Positions 23,017 to 30,912 of a stretch of 38,465 nt of DNA are shown here, in pieces (positions within the stretch are counted from its first letter, which is position 1; every line of letters starts with the position of its first letter). The stretch is from assembly GCF_003003775.1 (NCBI RefSeq), contig NZ_PVWJ01000043.1, forward strand, positions 1-38,465, written 5' to 3'. A program made the position numbers and the translations under genes. This stretch comes from Merismopedia glauca CCAP 1448/3. GTDB taxonomy: Bacteria; Cyanobacteriota; Cyanobacteriia; Cyanobacteriales; CCAP-1448. The notes beneath the pieces are model-generated. The model was given only the letters and a program-made list of their open reading frames with translations, searched no databases and had not been told where the DNA came from.

Positions 23017-23973
23017 ATGCTTTTGAAAAGACAGAATTATTTGCCAGTGCTATGGATTCAGCAGGGAATTAAGCTAGGGAATAGTTTTCACTATCGTCAG
23101 AAACAAAACCTGATTCACAACAGTTTGAATCTAGTAGTATTCCTAATAATTATAAGCTTTGTGGGGCTACTTCTTTGGCTGGGGACGATGATTTCCCCCT
23201 GGTTTTATCTCCCCTTGGCTGCTGTTGGATTTGGATGGTCGTACTTTATGCTGTTTATTTTAGTGGTGCATGAAGCGTCCCATAATATGTTTATTGTGGT
23301 CAAAAATCTCCAGCAAGCTAAAGCTTGGAACCGTTTTTTTGGCTGCATGGTGTGTATTCCTTTTGGGATTAACTACATTAAACATTGGGAAATTGGGCAT
23401 CAAATTCATCATATTCATCCCGTTGAGCCTCAAGATCCGCAAAATTGCCCCGAAACTATTTATACAGGCAAAAAGTTATTTAAATATCTAGCAAAAGTCC
23501 TCTTGATTCCTGGTTACGCCATTTTACGTATAGATTATGCCTGTTCCGCAGAGCAAGAGTATGGTAGTAATTGGTGGTTAACGATTAGTTCGGGGTTTAT
23601 TTGGATATTGTCACTAAGTTTAGAGACAATTTATTTAAATTGGCAAGTTGCAGTAGCAGCTTTTTTAGGTATCCAAGTCCTAGTAGTATTTAATACCTTA
23701 AAAATAACTATCGAACATGGTGGTGAAATTGGTCGAAGAGATAATTTCTGTTTGCGCTCTTGTAGTTCCTTTTTCCTGTTAAGAAGATTATTAATGCCCT
23801 TTAATATTTCGCTGCATTTCGAGCATCATCTTAATTATTGCGTTCCTTGGTACGATTTGATGAATTATCATCTTCAACTGAAAACAATCGTACCTGTTGA
23901 ATTTCAGGCAGATATTTTCAAATTTAACGGACAAGTATGGCAGCAAATTAATTCTAGGTCATGTAATGAGTAA
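23017..23973 (+). CDS. fatty acid desaturase-type membrane di-iron enzyme
   Basis: This 318-residue membrane enzyme has the three histidine boxes of fatty acid desaturases/hydroxylases: HEASH (85-89), HQIHH (128-132) and HFEHH (267-271), plus His 234 in the EHGG stretch. Two pairs of hydrophobic segments (about 38-82 and 188-232) fit the family's four-helix fold. It starts a four-gene operon and overlaps the next gene by eight bases, which implies translational coupling. The partners (SDR, CdsA-like, PssA-like) suggest that it acts on a phospholipid or its acyl/alkyl chain. Plasmanyl-lipid desaturation is an attractive but unproven option, since the sequence does not match the known TMEM189/CarF plasmalogen desaturase. 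Confidence 0.82.
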   Translation: MLLKRQNYLPVLWIQQGIKLGNSFHYRQKQNLIHNSLNLVVFLIIISFVGLLLWLGTMISPWFYLPLAAVGFGWSYFMLFILVVHEASHNMFIVVKNLQQAKAWNRFFGCMVCIPFGINYIKHWEIGHQIHHIHPVEPQDPQNCPETIYTGKKLFKYLAKVLLIPGYAILRIDYACSAEQEYGSNWWLTISSGFIWILSLSLETIYLNWQVAVAAFLGIQVLVVFNTLKITIEHGGEIGRRDNFCLRSCSSFFLLRRLLMPFNISLHFEHHLNYCVPWYDLMNYHLQLKTIVPVEFQADIFKFNGQVWQQINSRSCNE

Positions 23974-24778
23974 ATTTAGCGAGCGAGTCGTCTTAATTAC
24001 AGGAGCATCTGCGGGGATTGGTGCTGCTTTAGCGCAGGAATTTGCGTCGGAAGGAGCGAATTTAGTGTTATTCGCCAGACGAATCGAGAAATTAAAAGAG
24101 ATCGCTCATAGTATCGATCCTACTGGTGCAAGGGTACTTTATCTTACCTGTGATGTCACTAAAGATGGAGAGCTAGAAAAAGCTGTAGAATTAGCTCGTG
24201 CTAAGTTTGGCAAGATTGACATTGCGATCGCCAATGCTGGTTGGTCTGTGAAAGGTAAGCTGGAAGAGCTAAGTTTAGCTGATTATCGCCGTCAATGGGA
24301 AACCAATGTATTTGGGGTACTCCGTACTGTTTACGCCACATTAGAGGATCTTAAGCAAACTCAAGGCAGATTGGTGATTATTAGTAGCGTTAAAAGTTAT
24401 ATTGCTTTGGCTGGAGATTCTCCCTACAGCATGAGTAAATTTGCCCTGAAAGCCTTGTGTCAGTCTTTATCTAGAGAATTAACCCCCTACGGAATTTCTG
24501 TCACTCACGTCTGTCCTGCTTACGTCGGGACTGAAATTCGACGGATAGATAATCAAGGGAATTTTCAGCCAGATTGGTCAGATCCAATTTCTCCTCGATT
24601 AATTAAAAGCACCGAACAAACCGCAAAGGAGATTGTTAAAGCAGTTTATCGACGACAAACAGAACAGGTACTGACTGTTTACGGCAAATTTATAGTTTTA
24701 GCTCAACGTCATTTACCCTGGCTGCTGTCGTGGTTAATTTCGAGGTGGCAAATTAAGGTAGTGGCTAAATCGAATTGA
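23966..24778 (+). CDS. short-chain dehydrogenase/reductase, possible acyl/alkyl-DHAP reductase
   Basis: This 270-residue classical SDR has the cofactor motif TGASAGIG (12-19), NAG (90-92), the catalytic Ser 140/141 and Tyr 154-xxx-Lys 158. Basic residues after the second strand (ARRIEK, 37-42) favour NADPH. The C-terminal 25 residues (RHLPWLLSWLISRWQ) are hydrophobic and could anchor it to the membrane. The ATG at 23966 is chosen: it overlaps the desaturase stop by eight bases, whereas the longer frame to 23897 would run deep into that gene. By context it may reduce alkyl- or acyl-dihydroxyacetone phosphate, the job done in animals by an SDR (DHRS7B/PexRAP). That substrate is inference. Confidence 0.85.
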   Translation: MSKFSERVVLITGASAGIGAALAQEFASEGANLVLFARRIEKLKEIAHSIDPTGARVLYLTCDVTKDGELEKAVELARAKFGKIDIAIANAGWSVKGKLEELSLADYRRQWETNVFGVLRTVYATLEDLKQTQGRLVIISSVKSYIALAGDSPYSMSKFALKALCQSLSRELTPYGISVTHVCPAYVGTEIRRIDNQGNFQPDWSDPISPRLIKSTEQTAKEIVKAVYRRQTEQVLTVYGKFIVLAQRHLPWLLSWLISRWQIKVVAKSN

Positions 24779-24787
24779 GACTAATTT

Positions 24788-25693
24788 ATGGCGATCAATC
24801 CTCTATTATGGCGTATTATGCCAATTTTTGCCAGTGCAGTAGCATTGTCAGTTTTTTTATCATCGATTATTAGTATTCTATATCGCGATCGCCCTGAAAA
24901 GGTAATTAATACTTGGCTGAAGCTAGGAATATTATTAGGTTTAATTTTACTTTTAATCGGTACGGGGAGTTTAGGAAAGTGGGGATTTTTGCCGATTGCT
25001 TTATTTTTGGCTTACTGGGGATGGCGAGAATTATTAGGGTGTATTGAGGTTAAATACGGAGAGATTTTACATTCGACTCTCATCATTTTCCTTGGTACTT
25101 TTGGGATTTTAGGAGGACTGGAGGGTAATAGTTTAACTGCTTTTTTGGGAATTGCGATCGCTGCTTGGTTAGCGGTTACTTTACCAATGCTAATTCAGCG
25201 TCAACCCACATCTATGCACGGTGTTTTAGGGACTTCTTTTGGCATGATATTTATTACTATGCCCTTGGCTTTATTGCTAAATTTACTGACTAATAATTAT
25301 AGTCAATTTAGTTTCCTGATTTTGTTAGTGATGACTAATGATGGTTTCTCTCAAGGCTTTGGTTTGCTAGGGGGAAAAAAGCCTTTAATTCCTAGTATTA
25401 GTCCTGGTAAAACTTGGGTGGGAAGTGGAGGCGGTTTGCTAGCTTGTTTGATCGTTGGTTATCTGTTACGATTTCTGGTTCCAGAATGGCAATTGTGGCA
25501 AGCTATCTTAGTCGCTGGAATAATTTCTTTGATGTCTTTGTGCGGCGACTTAATTGCTTCTTCTCTCAAGCGAGAAGCGGGAATCAAAGACTTTGGTAAT
25601 GTTCTGGCTGTGACTGGTGGAATTCTCGATAAGTTTGATAGTTTGCTGTTTGCAACTCCTGTCTTTTATATTATCGCTCATTATCTTAAATAA
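24788..25693 (+). CDS. CdsA-like phosphatidate cytidylyltransferase paralogue
   Basis: This 301-residue protein with about eight membrane segments resembles CDP-diacylglycerol synthase. It has SPGKTW (205-210, SPKKTWEG in CdsA), GDLIASSLKR (253-262), Lys-Asp at 267-268, and GGILDKFD (277-284). The last is the CdsA signature, with the usual PGHGG and DR relaxed to AVTGG and DK; the metal-binding Asp 281 and Asp 284 remain. It would activate phosphatidate, or its alkyl analogue, with CTP. It begins nine bases after the SDR stop and is followed by a CDP-alcohol phosphatidyltransferase, the enzyme that uses its product. The divergent signature suggests a special-purpose paralogue rather than the housekeeping CdsA. 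Confidence 0.85.
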   Translation: MAINPLLWRIMPIFASAVALSVFLSSIISILYRDRPEKVINTWLKLGILLGLILLLIGTGSLGKWGFLPIALFLAYWGWRELLGCIEVKYGEILHSTLIIFLGTFGILGGLEGNSLTAFLGIAIAAWLAVTLPMLIQRQPTSMHGVLGTSFGMIFITMPLALLLNLLTNNYSQFSFLILLVMTNDGFSQGFGLLGGKKPLIPSISPGKTWVGSGGGLLACLIVGYLLRFLVPEWQLWQAILVAGIISLMSLCGDLIASSLKREAGIKDFGNVLAVTGGILDKFDSLLFATPVFYIIAHYLK

Positions 25694-25713
25694 TTAATCA
25701 TCTGAAAACAAGT

Positions 25714-26364
25714 ATGTTCAGTCCAATTTTAAAACAATTAGATTTAGCCAACTCATTTACTTTGACGGGATTAATTCTGAGTTTTTTCAGCGTAATCTTG
25801 GCAGTAAATGGCAAGTTTAATTTAGCAATTATTTGTTTAATTTATGCAGGAATTGTCGATTTACTGGACGGTTTGGTAGCTAGTAAAATCGAACGAACTC
25901 CTTTACAATCTGGGGCTGGCAAACAGTTAGATAGTGTAGTAGATCTCTGTTCTTTTGGCTTTGCACCTGCCCTGTTCGCTTACTGTTTTGGATTGAGAGA
26001 TTGGCTATCAATTACTATCCTGATTCTTTATTTAGGAGCTAATGCTTTACGGTTGGTATATTTTAATAATCAGGGTTTAGAAACTCAAGGAAAACAAGAA
26101 TACTTTACTGGATTGCCCGTTACTTACGCTGCTTTATTTATTCCTATTGCGTTTACGGCTCATTTTGTGTTACCGCTAACACAGATTAAGTTAGTTTTGG
26201 ATGGAGTTTATTTATTACTAGCGATCGCTATGGTAGCAGATTTTAAAATGCCCAAACTGCGAGGTATTTGGTATGTTATTTTTGGTGTAGGTGCGATCGC
26301 TCTCACGGTAATTTATACCTGGGCAATTTTTATTGTAGCTACATTTGCCTCTACTGCCAGATGA
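25714..26364 (+). CDS. CDP-alcohol phosphatidyltransferase, PssA-like (phosphatidylserine synthase)
   Basis: This 216-residue membrane enzyme has about six membrane segments and the CDP-alcohol phosphatidyltransferase motif: Asp 49, Asp 52-Gly 53, Ala 56, Gly 69, Asp 73 and Asp 77. The usual Arg after Ala 56 is Ser, with SKxxR following, as in some phosphatidylserine synthases. The following DSVVDLCSFGFAPA (73-86) is characteristic of PssA rather than PgsA. It would swap CMP for serine on CDP-diacylglycerol. It is the last gene of the plus-strand operon (20-base gap). Phosphatidylserine decarboxylase is encoded 3.6 kb away, which supports the serine assignment. Cyanobacteria generally do not make phosphatidylserine, so the gene is notable here. 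Confidence 0.82.
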   Translation: MFSPILKQLDLANSFTLTGLILSFFSVILAVNGKFNLAIICLIYAGIVDLLDGLVASKIERTPLQSGAGKQLDSVVDLCSFGFAPALFAYCFGLRDWLSITILILYLGANALRLVYFNNQGLETQGKQEYFTGLPVTYAALFIPIAFTAHFVLPLTQIKLVLDGVYLLLAIAMVADFKMPKLRGIWYVIFGVGAIALTVIYTWAIFIVATFASTAR

Positions 26365-26512: not shown

Positions 26513-28039
26513 ATGAACGTTTATCAAAAATTCTTCAAGCTTATTCTGGCAGGCAATACAAACGTGCCTGCAATGATAAATGCTATTGTTAGAGCCACTT
26601 TGCAAGCTCGAAATGATACGCAAGATAGTACCTTAACCTTCCGTCAAGTACATATTTTTCATACTGAGCAGTCATTACAAGCTCTTACAGCTTCAGCAGC
26701 TTGGGAAGAAGCTCTAAAACATTATGAAATTTCTTCAACTAGGTTGGTACATCATGTAGCGAAAATAGAAGATTCTAATGTTGATAGATTTAGAGATCTT
26801 GTAGAGCAGTTACGAATGATCGTTAACCCACTTGATAATGCACAAAACTATATCGATCTAACAAGTGGTATTTCATCTCTCAAGTCTATTCTTGCTGTCT
26901 TTGCTTATGTACTTGACATAGAAAATATTTATTCTTTAGAAATAGACTTCTCTGATGATCCAGCCACCAGAAAAAAACAAGCTGGTCTTTTTTACCATGA
27001 GTTAGTGCAAGAAGCTATAAGCATAGAATATCGCAAGTTCCCACCTATAAGGGAGTTTGATACTTTTGGAAAATTGAACTACACAGAGGTTTTACGTCAT
27101 CGGTCAATTATTGATGAGCTTGTAGGTAGTTTGACAAGCTTATTACCTACCGGACTTGATCTTGAACATTTACGAGAGTCACTATTATCTGGAGTGAATT
27201 CTCGTTTAATCGGTGAAGTTACTCAAGAATCTTATAGTTATCGCCACTCCATTTTTGCCTCTTCTGCGGGCGTTGAAGAGGTTGCAAATATTATCCTGAC
27301 CATCGTGAAAAATGCTGATTTGGAGAATAAAACACTTGGTCAGAAGTTGGATGAAGTGAGGGATGTTTTTTCTAAAAATCCCAAGTACTTTGTTAACACT
27401 GAAACATTGGAGTACCTTACTAAATTAATTACTTCAGTCAGGAATGATATTGCCCATCCTTCCTCAAGAAATGGTTATTCAAAAGAATTAACAGCTATTC
27501 AGTCTCGATTGTCCTCCCAGTTGGCATTTGCGTTTCTGCAATTTACGACAAAAACGCTGAGTTCTTTTCTAGATCAAAATGGTCAACTTGTAAACATTCA
27601 AATTCTCGAAGCTCCAATTGAGGAAGAGCAGACATTTTTTTACTTTGGCTTCGACGGTGATTCTACTGGTGACTACCTAGATACGGCATTTAGTCAGTCG
27701 AGTGAGGATGAAGTAAGACAGCGAAGCCAAATAGTACATGGTGCGATTAGTGAATTAAAGAAGTTGATCTGCAAAGAGACAAGGGATCATAACAGCGTAG
27801 TTTTTGCTGAAGGTGACAACATTCTCTTTAAAGCACGTTATCAAGTAAGTCTGCTTAATGAGCTTCAAAGAATTTATAAGGATAAAACTGGGTTAACTGG
27901 CACTATAGGGTACGGTAAAACGTTACCTGAAGTTGCCTTGGCAATGCGTCTTTCTAAAGCAAAAGGTGGAGATAGTGTTATGGGCATAGCTTTGAAAGAT
28001 CCTGGAGAAGCAGGTAGTTCAGGTTCAACCGCAGGCTAA
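26513..28039 (+). CDS. CARF-like / HEPN / mCpol fusion (stand-alone cyclic-nucleotide defence-type protein)
   Basis: This 508-residue protein reads as three modules. Residues about 1-190 look like a CARF/SAVED-type Rossmann sensor, with the strand VHIFHT (46-51) and the motif IDLTSGISSLKS (114-125), which recalls the ligand-loop 'D-T-G' of CARF domains. Residues about 195-355 are helical and contain Arg 310-NDIA-His 315, an Rx4H motif of HEPN RNases. Residues about 374-495 match the minimal CRISPR polymerase: FYFGFDGDSTGDYLD (376-390; Asp 381, Asp 383), EGDNILF (433-439; Asp 435) and TGTIGYGKT...AK (462-484), the palm fold shared with Cas10 and GGDEF cyclases. It has an AAGG Shine-Dalgarno at 26504-26507, no HIP1 site, and no partner gene. 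The domain calls rest on motif recognition; the CARF part is the least certain. Confidence 0.75.
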   Translation: MNVYQKFFKLILAGNTNVPAMINAIVRATLQARNDTQDSTLTFRQVHIFHTEQSLQALTASAAWEEALKHYEISSTRLVHHVAKIEDSNVDRFRDLVEQLRMIVNPLDNAQNYIDLTSGISSLKSILAVFAYVLDIENIYSLEIDFSDDPATRKKQAGLFYHELVQEAISIEYRKFPPIREFDTFGKLNYTEVLRHRSIIDELVGSLTSLLPTGLDLEHLRESLLSGVNSRLIGEVTQESYSYRHSIFASSAGVEEVANIILTIVKNADLENKTLGQKLDEVRDVFSKNPKYFVNTETLEYLTKLITSVRNDIAHPSSRNGYSKELTAIQSRLSSQLAFAFLQFTTKTLSSFLDQNGQLVNIQILEAPIEEEQTFFYFGFDGDSTGDYLDTAFSQSSEDEVRQRSQIVHGAISELKKLICKETRDHNSVVFAEGDNILFKARYQVSLLNELQRIYKDKTGLTGTIGYGKTLPEVALAMRLSKAKGGDSVMGIALKDPGEAGSSGSTAG

Positions 28040-28235: not shown

Positions 28236-29999
28236 TTAGATATCGCTTTCAGCTAAAATATTATTCCGAACGCCGAAAATATTCTGAGGATCGCTAGCTT
28301 TCTTGATCTGACGCAACAATTCAATACTAGCAGGAGATAGAGTATCCTTCATAAAATCCTGACGAATTTTACCTACTCCATGATGATGGGAAATAGAACC
28401 ACCATTGGCAATAATAGTTTGTCGTAAAGAATGCTCGATTTGACCGCAAATTACTTCTGGGTGTTCGACTCCTTTGATATAAACCGCAAACATAAAATAG
28501 ATACAAACTCCAGTGTGATAAGACTGGCTGATGCGATAAGAAAGATAGGGTTTTCCAGGTAAATTATATTGACGATGTAGTTCTTGAAGTTGCTGCGCTA
28601 CAGCATTACATACCTGCTGAATTTCGCTCCAAGGTACAGAGGTTTCAAATGTTTCGCCAGTAATATAATAAGAGGATAGAAAATCTCGTAAATAGGCGAT
28701 CGCATAAGTCAGCATATACCCTCGTTGCCCGTTAGTCGCCCCTGTAGCTAACCCTTGAAATTTTTTAGCTAAAGCATAGATATTAGTTTGTTGATAAGCA
28801 ACCTCTTCAGCAGCACCTTCCATGACAATAGTTGCAGCTACCATTTGTTGAGGATCGAAACCCCGCAGTTTCAGGACGTAGAATTTTTTGAGCTTGTCAA
28901 GATAAGCTAGAATGCTACTAGATTTGGGTTTTAAGGCTTGACCGAAACGAAACTGATTGTTATCTACCAAGCGGATACTGGCAGGGATAAAGCCACTGTG
29001 CGCCACTTCATAGAGAAATTTCACCCCTAGATCGAAGTTGGGGAAAATTAACGAACCGTACTTAGTCACCTGGGGGAGAGGATGAATCTTTATTACAGCC
29101 TGGATAATCAGTCCCAAATTACCTTCATTGCCAAATAAGAGATTTTGTAACTGCATTCCCATCGAAGCGCGAGGGGTTGGTGCAATTTGTTCGATTACGC
29201 CTGTTGGTGTCAGCAGGGTAATATTTTCTACTATTTGCTCGATATTACCGTAGCGGTTTTTCTTCATTCCACTAGCATTGGTGGCAATCCAACCTCCCAA
29301 AGTGGATAATTCTAAACTATCGGGTTCGTGTCCGCAGACAAAACCGTGTTGGCGTAATTCTGCTTCTAATTGTTTACCTGTAATTCCTGCTTGAAAGCAA
29401 GCGCGGAGATTTTCGCGATCGATCCACTCTAGTCGATTCATCCGCTTCATATCTACAGATACGATCGCGCGAGTTTCTGTTAATGGTAGTTTTAAAGCAC
29501 AGCTAACACTAGTTCCGCCACCAAAGGGTACGAGACAAACATCATACTTGATAGCTAGTTCAATTAATTTCTGAGCATCGGCAGTAGATTCACAGTAAAA
29601 TACCATATCTACCAAGCGTTCTAATTGAGAATATAGAACTTTGTGAACTTCTTCAAAAGTAGTTTGTCCGTGACTGTGAAGCAGACGTTCTGAGTCTTCA
29701 AAGCTATATTGATGGGCGGGAAATAAATCGGCGATCGCTTGAGTAAAATCAGCATTGCAATTGGGCGGTGTAATATAAGCTTGTTTTACTTCTTCTAAGA
29801 CATCTTTTAGCTCGATTTTGATGTCTAATAATTCTTCTATATAAGGGATTAGATAGGGCATTTTATACCCCGATAAAGCATAGCGATCGCCTGTCATAAT
29901 TACCGAGCGATCTTCATTAATTTTTAAAGAAGTATCCGCATAACCCCATTTATGTCCCCACAGAGCATTGTTAGAAGAGCGATCGCTTTTGTTTGTCAT
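28236..29999 (-). CDS. alkyldihydroxyacetonephosphate synthase (AGPS-like)
   Basis: This 587-residue FAD enzyme matches animal alkyl-DHAP synthase along its length. That enzyme swaps the acyl chain of acyl-DHAP for a fatty alcohol and so creates the ether bond of ether lipids. Visible matches are WGYADTS (18-24), LSGYKMP (42-48), the FAD motif PFGGGTSVS (158-166), GHEPDSLELSTLGGW (223-237), ASGMKKNRYGNIE (242-254), the catalytic Tyr 494 in SQSYHTG, and the His triple 538-540 in SHHHGVGK. There is no peroxisomal or signal sequence. The ATG at 29999 is chosen over a TTG at 30020 because it sits four bases after the stop of the decarboxylase gene. Generic FAD oxidases (GlcD/LDH type) lack this N-terminal WGY segment and the His triple. 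Confidence 0.92.
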   Translation of the reverse strand: MTNKSDRSSNNALWGHKWGYADTSLKINEDRSVIMTGDRYALSGYKMPYLIPYIEELLDIKIELKDVLEEVKQAYITPPNCNADFTQAIADLFPAHQYSFEDSERLLHSHGQTTFEEVHKVLYSQLERLVDMVFYCESTADAQKLIELAIKYDVCLVPFGGGTSVSCALKLPLTETRAIVSVDMKRMNRLEWIDRENLRACFQAGITGKQLEAELRQHGFVCGHEPDSLELSTLGGWIATNASGMKKNRYGNIEQIVENITLLTPTGVIEQIAPTPRASMGMQLQNLLFGNEGNLGLIIQAVIKIHPLPQVTKYGSLIFPNFDLGVKFLYEVAHSGFIPASIRLVDNNQFRFGQALKPKSSSILAYLDKLKKFYVLKLRGFDPQQMVAATIVMEGAAEEVAYQQTNIYALAKKFQGLATGATNGQRGYMLTYAIAYLRDFLSSYYITGETFETSVPWSEIQQVCNAVAQQLQELHRQYNLPGKPYLSYRISQSYHTGVCIYFMFAVYIKGVEHPEVICGQIEHSLRQTIIANGGSISHHHGVGKIRQDFMKDTLSPASIELLRQIKKASDPQNIFGVRNNILAESDI

Positions 30000-30003
30000 T
30001 AAT

Positions 30004-30912
30004 TTAGTTCTCAATCTCAATTTTTTTTCCGAGTCTACTACCTGCTAAGACTGCAACTTCAATCCCTTGAATTGAATCTTGTAATAAATCGGAATCGAAT
30101 AAAATCTTGCCTGGTTCAAAAAGCAGAATTATCGTCGAGCCTCCATATTGGAAATAGCCTTTTTCTTGACCTCTATTTACTCTTCCTGGTTTGTATGTTT
30201 GAATAATACTACTAACCGTCAATGCTCCAATTTCAATATAGGCAATACTGCCAAAGTTATCGGAATTGAATTGAGTAATAGCTCTTTGATTGCGACAGTA
30301 AATATCTGGTACTTTATTCAAAGCAATGGGATTGACAGAATGATATTCTCCTTTGATGTATTTTGCCGATTCGGCTATTCCGCTATCGGGAAAATGAAAG
30401 CGATGATAATCGTAGGGAGCAAGACGTAAAATGATGACATTTCCCCCAATATAAATATCTGAATTAATTGATGAGCCTAACAGTGAATCTAGAGAAAAAA
30501 ATTGATTTTTGACAGGTATTTTGCTAGTATATTTTAATTTTGAACAAACTAATATCTTGCCATCGCCAGGAGCGCAAAATGTATTGTCATCGGCAATAAA
30601 AGGTCTAACAGATGGCTTGAGTTGACGACAGAAAAAGGCGTTAAAACTGGAATATTCTGGGAGTGGTAATATGAGTTCTGTTGGATCTATTTCGTATTTA
30701 GCCACAAACCGATAAATCTGATGGCGACTATAAGATGAATCTTGATATTTGCCATAAATTACATTAAATATTTTCCGATTCAGAAAAACGTGCCAAACTA
30801 GATAACCAAGATAAGTTTCATATAACCACCGCAAGATATTTTCCTGAAAAATCTGTTCGGTAATTAACTCTCCTGAAAGGCGATCGCGATATAGTATTTT
30901 CCTAAAGCTCAT
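30004..30912 (-). CDS. psd: phosphatidylserine decarboxylase
   Basis: This enzyme decarboxylates phosphatidylserine to phosphatidylethanolamine, using a pyruvoyl group made by self-cleavage. The 302-residue proenzyme has Asp 117 in APGDGKI, the His pair 170/173 in PYDYHRFHFP, and the cleavage motif GGST (257-260, cut between Gly 258 and Ser 259) in YGGSTIILLFEPGKI. These make up the Asp-His-Ser triad. FNAFFCRQLKPSVRP (90-104) is a further family hallmark. It starts the minus-strand operon and is four bases from the alkyl-DHAP synthase gene. It is divergent from hisS across 128 bases. Cyanobacteria do not usually contain phosphatidylethanolamine, so an active copy is unexpected. Confidence 0.95.
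   Translation of the reverse strand: MSFRKILYRDRLSGELITEQIFQENILRWLYETYLGYLVWHVFLNRKIFNVIYGKYQDSSYSRHQIYRFVAKYEIDPTELILPLPEYSSFNAFFCRQLKPSVRPFIADDNTFCAPGDGKILVCSKLKYTSKIPVKNQFFSLDSLLGSSINSDIYIGGNVIILRLAPYDYHRFHFPDSGIAESAKYIKGEYHSVNPIALNKVPDIYCRNQRAITQFNSDNFGSIAYIEIGALTVSSIIQTYKPGRVNRGQEKGYFQYGGSTIILLFEPGKILFDSDLLQDSIQGIEVAVLAGSRLGKKIEIEN

Follow-up and report, generated by a model that had tools for sequence, protein, structure and literature searches.

Panoptes (OptSE) couples an mCpol cyclase to an S-2TM-beta effector, which is a separate membrane protein, and the system is linked to CBASS. Mutation of D6 or D57 abolished the activity of OptS. The characterised mCpols are constitutively active and their effector is restrained (PMC12657218, PMC12657230). 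Less often, mCpol genes are operon-coupled or fused to HEPN RNases, and positive versus negative control by the nucleotide was left open for these cases; for CARF and HEPN effectors in general, the Panoptes authors likewise did not decide between inhibition and activation by mCpol products (PMC12657218, 2025). The CARF-HEPN proteins of type III CRISPR systems, among them Csm6 and Csx1, are turned on by their ligand (PMC12669027). Another arrangement, CARF_m9--CARF_TM of PADLOC, also couples mCpol to a CARF effector, in this case a 2TM membrane protein that is usually encoded by a separate gene. Closest to the locus described here is the PADLOC-DB (2023) family CARF_HEPN_mCpol (PDLC01967), for which PADLOC gives no function. 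Makarova (2020) and Burroughs (2015) reportedly discuss mCpol and CARF architectures. A literature search for an experimental test of any CARF_HEPN_mCpol member found none.

The window, the whole stretch of 38,465 nucleotides of Merismopedia glauca CCAP 1448/3 that was analysed, encodes one protein of this kind (Table 1). The reading frame contained no internal stop, and the opposite strand was full of stops. The protein matched the CARF_HEPN_mCpol model with an E value of 5.8e-210 over residues 8-494 of 508 and profile positions 2-470 of 471, and it shares with that family the same three domains in identical order, without any difference in architecture. Because PADLOC-DB contains this full-length model, the three-domain architecture had already been catalogued; it is not new, and the candidate anti-phage protein was likewise on record. 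The novelty of the three-domain module was overstated in the original prediction, since PDLC01967 is already catalogued and the Panoptes paper mentions mCpol-HEPN fusions. Its claim that CARF, HEPN and mCpol are fused in one chain was backed by profiles, fold comparison and conservation, and the motif positions on which it relied (IDLTSGISSLKS at 114-125, R310-NDIA-H315, FGFDGD with D381 and D383, EGD with D435, and TGTIGYGKT) were all confirmed. The present analysis adds that the fused mCpol domains form a clade apart from OptS, that the gene is solitary, patchily distributed and often broken, that it tracks neither CBASS nor Cas10, and that split and inverted relatives exist.

Table 1. Position of the fusion gene, its domains and its predicted functional residues in the window.
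Feature	Position	Strand	Remarks
CARF-HEPN-mCpol protein gene	26513..28039	+	508 aa, ATG start, stop codon included
CARF domain, residues 5-184	26525..27064	+	fold matches; weak PADLOC Csx1/Csm6 and CARF1 matches
CARF motif IDLTSGISSLKS, residues 114-125	26852..26887	+	D115, G119 and S121 invariant
Helical region with HEPN fold, residues 185-354, HEPN core about 210-354	27065..27574	+	separate domain model
Predicted HEPN RNase motif R310-N-D-I-A-H315	27440..27457	+	at helix end; R, N and H invariant
mCpol cyclase (palm) domain, residues 374-495	27632..27997	+	Pfam PF18182 and fold match to OptS
mCpol metal-site motif D381-G-D383	27653..27661	+	D381 aligns with KpOptS D6; both invariant
S405	27725..27727	+	aligns with KpOptS S30 (nucleobase choice); invariant
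D435	27815..27817	+	aligns with KpOptS D57, second catalytic aspartate; invariant

The C-terminal domain was recognised directly by sequence profiles. Pfam PF18182 (mCpol) matched residues 377-491 with an E value of 1.6e-28 and 99.8 bits, against a curated cut-off of 26.4, and NCBIfam agreed. The mCpol part of the full-length model aligned with Klebsiella OptS (9pd0_C) over 116 aa with a Z score of 15.6 and an rmsd of 2.1. In 10 fusion proteins with 25-82% identity to the window protein, D381, D383, S405 and D435 of the mCpol domain and R310, N311 and H315 of the HEPN domain were invariant. Both sites were also retained in the divergent member L058, and the catalytic residues D381 and D435, together with R310 and H315, were constant across two deep branches. 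The base contact N34 of KpOptS is replaced by H409 in the window protein, and because this position is variable in the CARF-HEPN-mCpol family, the enzyme may make a product other than 2',3'-c-di-AMP. On the basis of motif and modelled fold, the mCpol domain is predicted to synthesise a cyclic nucleotide.

The HEPN region folded alone with a pTM of 0.73. The best match of this model was AF0298 (2hsb), with a Z score of 11.7 and an rmsd of 3.0 over 123 aa, and further matches were TM0613, the sacsin HEPN domain, AbiA, HepT and Csm6 (6tug_E), with Z scores of 11.0, 10.8, 10.2, 10.0 and 8.8, respectively; Z scores of 9-11.7 call for caution, as helical bundles easily score high, but the leading matches were nearly all HEPN proteins. 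The RNase motif of HEPN proteins is Rx4-6H, with a polar residue after the arginine and a position at the end of a helix (PMC3710099). In the window protein an asparagine follows R310, and both R310 and H315 were located at a helix end in the model. The pattern RNxxxH is expected in about 3% of shuffles of the window protein. Because the motif alone would arise this often by chance, the HEPN call rests on its invariance down to 25% identity, on the motif of the split CARF-HEPN proteins described below, and on the fold. The sequence and the model together point to a putative RNase.

The CARF part of the full-length model matched Cad1-CARF, CARF ring nucleases and Csm6 with Z scores of 11-13. 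A Rossmann-like CARF fold was present, with the matches 9c69_A (Z 12.6 over 145 aa) and 7pq3 (Z 12.5), and the modelled domain is predicted to bind a cyclic oligonucleotide. A search of PDB sequences with the window protein returned no CARF or HEPN match, so the assignment of these two domains rests on fold and PADLOC. The full-length AlphaFold model of the window protein was moderate to weak (pLDDT 67, pTM 0.41), and we therefore used only its two better domains, together with the separate HEPN model. In these models the palm, CARF and HEPN helical folds that had been anticipated were all recovered, and neither the model of the full-length protein nor that of the middle domain showed a leftover domain able to serve as a dedicated infection sensor. 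Pairwise dN/dS between intact fusions was about 0.05-0.28 in CARF, HEPN and mCpol alike, with dS often near saturation; purifying selection acts on all three domains. A match to a 'Circular tendon repeat protein' consisted of eight weak pieces and was discarded as a repeat artefact.

The fusion is most likely a solitary, self-contained defence protein that unites cyclase, sensor and RNase, and we assign a probability of about 80% to the reading that the three work as one nucleotide-controlled abortive-infection module. In the scheme that we infer for its enzymatic activity, ligand identity, dimerisation and role in defence, the C-terminal mCpol palm, with a composite site between two chains, would convert NTPs into a cyclic (oligo)nucleotide. 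This product would be bound by the N-terminal CARF domain of the same homodimer, and the central HEPN pair would act as the RNase by which the infected cell is stopped. With cyclase, sensor and RNase in one gene, it would be about the simplest system for settling inhibition versus activation.

The absence of a 2TM effector next door, as stated in the original prediction, was borne out: the neighbours are lipid-metabolism genes, and the relatives have no conserved partner. The survey of genomes that it had proposed, for the same architecture and its neighbours, found the fusion in relatives and the gene solitary, with no conserved partner gene across the 15 loci examined. The GTDB species set contained 15 relatives. 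The cyanobacterial ones were found in Okeania, Microcoleus, Lyngbya, Kamptonema, Coleofasciculus and others, and beyond the cyanobacteria there were one MAG each of Eremiobacterota and Nitrospirae, and a fragment from Chloroflexota that lies at the edge of its contig. A full-length match was present in 4/386 genomes of the cyanobacterial phylum, in which no CARF-HEPN part without mCpol was found at the threshold used, and the fusion was present in 15/391 genomes of the order, 9 of them with an intact and 6 with a broken copy.

If the protein served the control of cellular stress or growth instead of phage defence, or were a single-chain mobile element of the toxin-antitoxin type, this would agree with a window gene that lies among lipid-metabolism genes and not in a defence island, and with the frequency of broken copies. 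We regard this as unlikely, since the patchy presence in phylum and order and the frequent decay fit a defence gene, as does the L007 copy, which adjoins DndC/DndD-like and ZorAB-like genes, and related mCpol systems defend against phage. Carriage by mobile elements was rejected, as tblastn gave no match in 72,556 plasmids, in 50,697 phages or in IMG/VR; a blastn match in a Scytonema plasmid was distant, covered 57 bases and was disregarded. The lipid genes flank the fusion gene at 23017-26364 and 28236-30912 of the window and encode a fatty acid desaturase, an SDR, CdsA-like and PssA-like enzymes, an FAD oxidase and a phosphatidylserine decarboxylase. Cyanobacteria are generally described as lacking phosphatidylethanolamine, and for this reason the cluster may deserve a look.

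The original prediction had also described the gene as having no CRISPR array and no cas genes next door. This was correct locally, as the window contains no CRISPR-like array and no cas gene adjoins the fusion gene, but the genome has two type III CRISPR loci. One is a III-B locus with Cas1, Cas10, Cmr3, Cmr4 and a 25-repeat array, and the other, also of type III, has an array of 10 repeats; they were found at L086:328-13692 and L087:7134-11447, on contigs 73 and 5. Because of these two loci, another source of cyclic oligoadenylates may exist in the cell. The protein could then mainly serve type III CRISPR, as an additional effector or as an amplifier: its CARF domain would sense the cyclic oligoadenylates that Cas10 produces at another place in the genome, and its mCpol domain would be accessory. 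Besides the host loci with their arrays, a Cas10-family gene in 11/15 carriers of the fusion speaks for this explanation. However, the rate equals the background of the order (259/376 of the other genomes, Fisher p 1.0), in a count of Cas10-palm genes that also detects Cas10d of type I-D and is not specific to type III. Furthermore, Microcoleus vaginatus HSN003 has an intact copy, and its single-contig chromosome, the sequence that was searched, gave no Cas10 or SMODS match; inspection by eye of the ORFs around the copies examined revealed no recognisable cas gene. An effector of this type is thus improbable, and an obligate type III effector was rejected owing to the lack of Cas10 enrichment and the intact copy without Cas10. 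The window protein resembles Csm6/Csx1 in having CARF followed by HEPN with Rx4H and in folds that align to Csm6, whereas it differs in having its own cyclase domain, in not lying at a CRISPR locus and in its independence of the presence of Cas10.

SMODS enzymes were not enriched either (1/15 carriers against 40/376 other genomes of the order, p 1.0), and the host genome had no SMODS match. As the Microcoleus chromosome with an intact copy shows neither Cas10 nor SMODS, the ligand would be self-made or come from some other source. That neither is required favours self-sufficiency of the fusion protein, which is plausible. A CBASS guard, judged by co-occurrence, was rejected because SMODS was not enriched in carriers.

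Effector type, neighbourhood and mCpol clade all spoke against membership in Panoptes, which was rejected. The mCpol domains are homologous, and the catalytic aspartates and the fold are common to both; in contrast to the separate membrane effector of Panoptes, that of the window protein is fused and is a soluble CARF-HEPN, and the fusion carriers show no CBASS association. In a maximum-likelihood tree of mCpol domains, all of the CARF-HEPN-mCpol fusions formed one clade (99/99), and KpOptS grouped with S-2TM-beta-linked mCpols (100/96). The fusion therefore appears to have a single origin and not to be a rearranged OptS.

The broken copies had lesions in different domains. In L004 (Okeania) and L005 (Lyngbya) the CARF-HEPN frame was open and mCpol was broken, and L014 retained the C-terminal part alone. 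When the lesions were compared, mCpol was the first part to be hit in L004 and L005 and CARF/HEPN the first in L013 and L070, with no asymmetry that would speak for either sign of control. In the Okeania copies L004, L011 and L015 the fusion gene was interrupted at one common mCpol site, after GTIGY, and L002 was intact; the common interruption is a shared insertion decaying within one genus. In Coleofasciculus (L013:8001-9103) the stretch matching residues 180-312 was lost, which comprises most of HEPN including R310, and CARF and mCpol were open.

An inhibitory sign, with the RNase in a restrained state, is slightly favoured over activation because the known mCpols work constitutively, the protein shows no separate domain for sensing, and its gene is solitary. 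The cyclase would then be constitutively active, its product would hold the HEPN RNase off, and phage sponges or phosphodiesterases would deplete the product and release the RNase. We give close to an even chance to one nucleotide-controlled abortive-infection module with this sign, a tripwire like that of Panoptes. The more specific proposal, that one polypeptide is its own toxin and small-molecule antitoxin, with mCpol constantly making a nucleotide that silences the HEPN RNase within the same dimer until destruction or sequestration of the nucleotide by a phage factor triggers RNA cleavage, is tentative, at somewhat below even odds. If the product inhibits, a CARF-HEPN RNase would be held off and not activated by its ligand, and the fusion would realise the Panoptes principle in a single gene, with a soluble RNase.

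Several observations weigh against an inhibitory sign. Characterised CARF-HEPN RNases of type III systems (Csm6/Csx1) are activated by their ligand (PMC12669027). The carriers, unlike Panoptes, are not enriched in SMODS or CBASS, and the fused mCpols form a clade of their own, apart from OptS, with H409 in place of N34 in the window protein. Furthermore, with the product as the brake, the open CARF-HEPN of L004 and L005, whose mCpol is broken, would be expected to be toxic, although an assembly error, lack of expression or misfolding could explain these two copies. The ligand-activated type III proteins, L004 and L005, and the lack of tracking with CBASS all agree with the opposite sign, by which infection or another cue would switch the cyclase on and the product would activate the CARF-HEPN RNase of the same dimer, as in type III signalling without a crRNA. 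If the product activates, the fusion would amount to type III signalling in miniature, without CRISPR. However, neither a separate infection-sensing domain nor a partner gene is visible, and the characterised mCpols are active without a trigger; with a constitutively active mCpol, the RNase would therefore be permanently active. We consider activation possible and give it almost as much weight as the inhibitory sign.

Related modules were also encoded by separate genes. A separate CARF-HEPN gene with RNxxxH was located beside mCpol at L077:6092-7628 (+) and L082:6126-7531 (-), both in the same order, and because these are adjoining genes, the mCpol and CARF-HEPN modules travel together in trans too, which speaks for their working as one module. 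CARF-2TM genes were located beside mCpol in L068, L075, L076, L081, L083 and L084, also of the same order, and in L085, of a different order of the same class. These pairs, which correspond to CARF_m9--CARF_TM, differ from the window fusion in their membrane effector. Single-chain mCpol-CARF-2TM proteins with an N-terminal cyclase were found at L065:8078-9535 (-) and L066:8199-9476 (-). The OptS-like mCpols L078:6114-6485 and L080:1870-2250 each lay within about 2 kb of a SMODS match on the same contig, and these loci are Panoptes beside CBASS in cyanobacteria.
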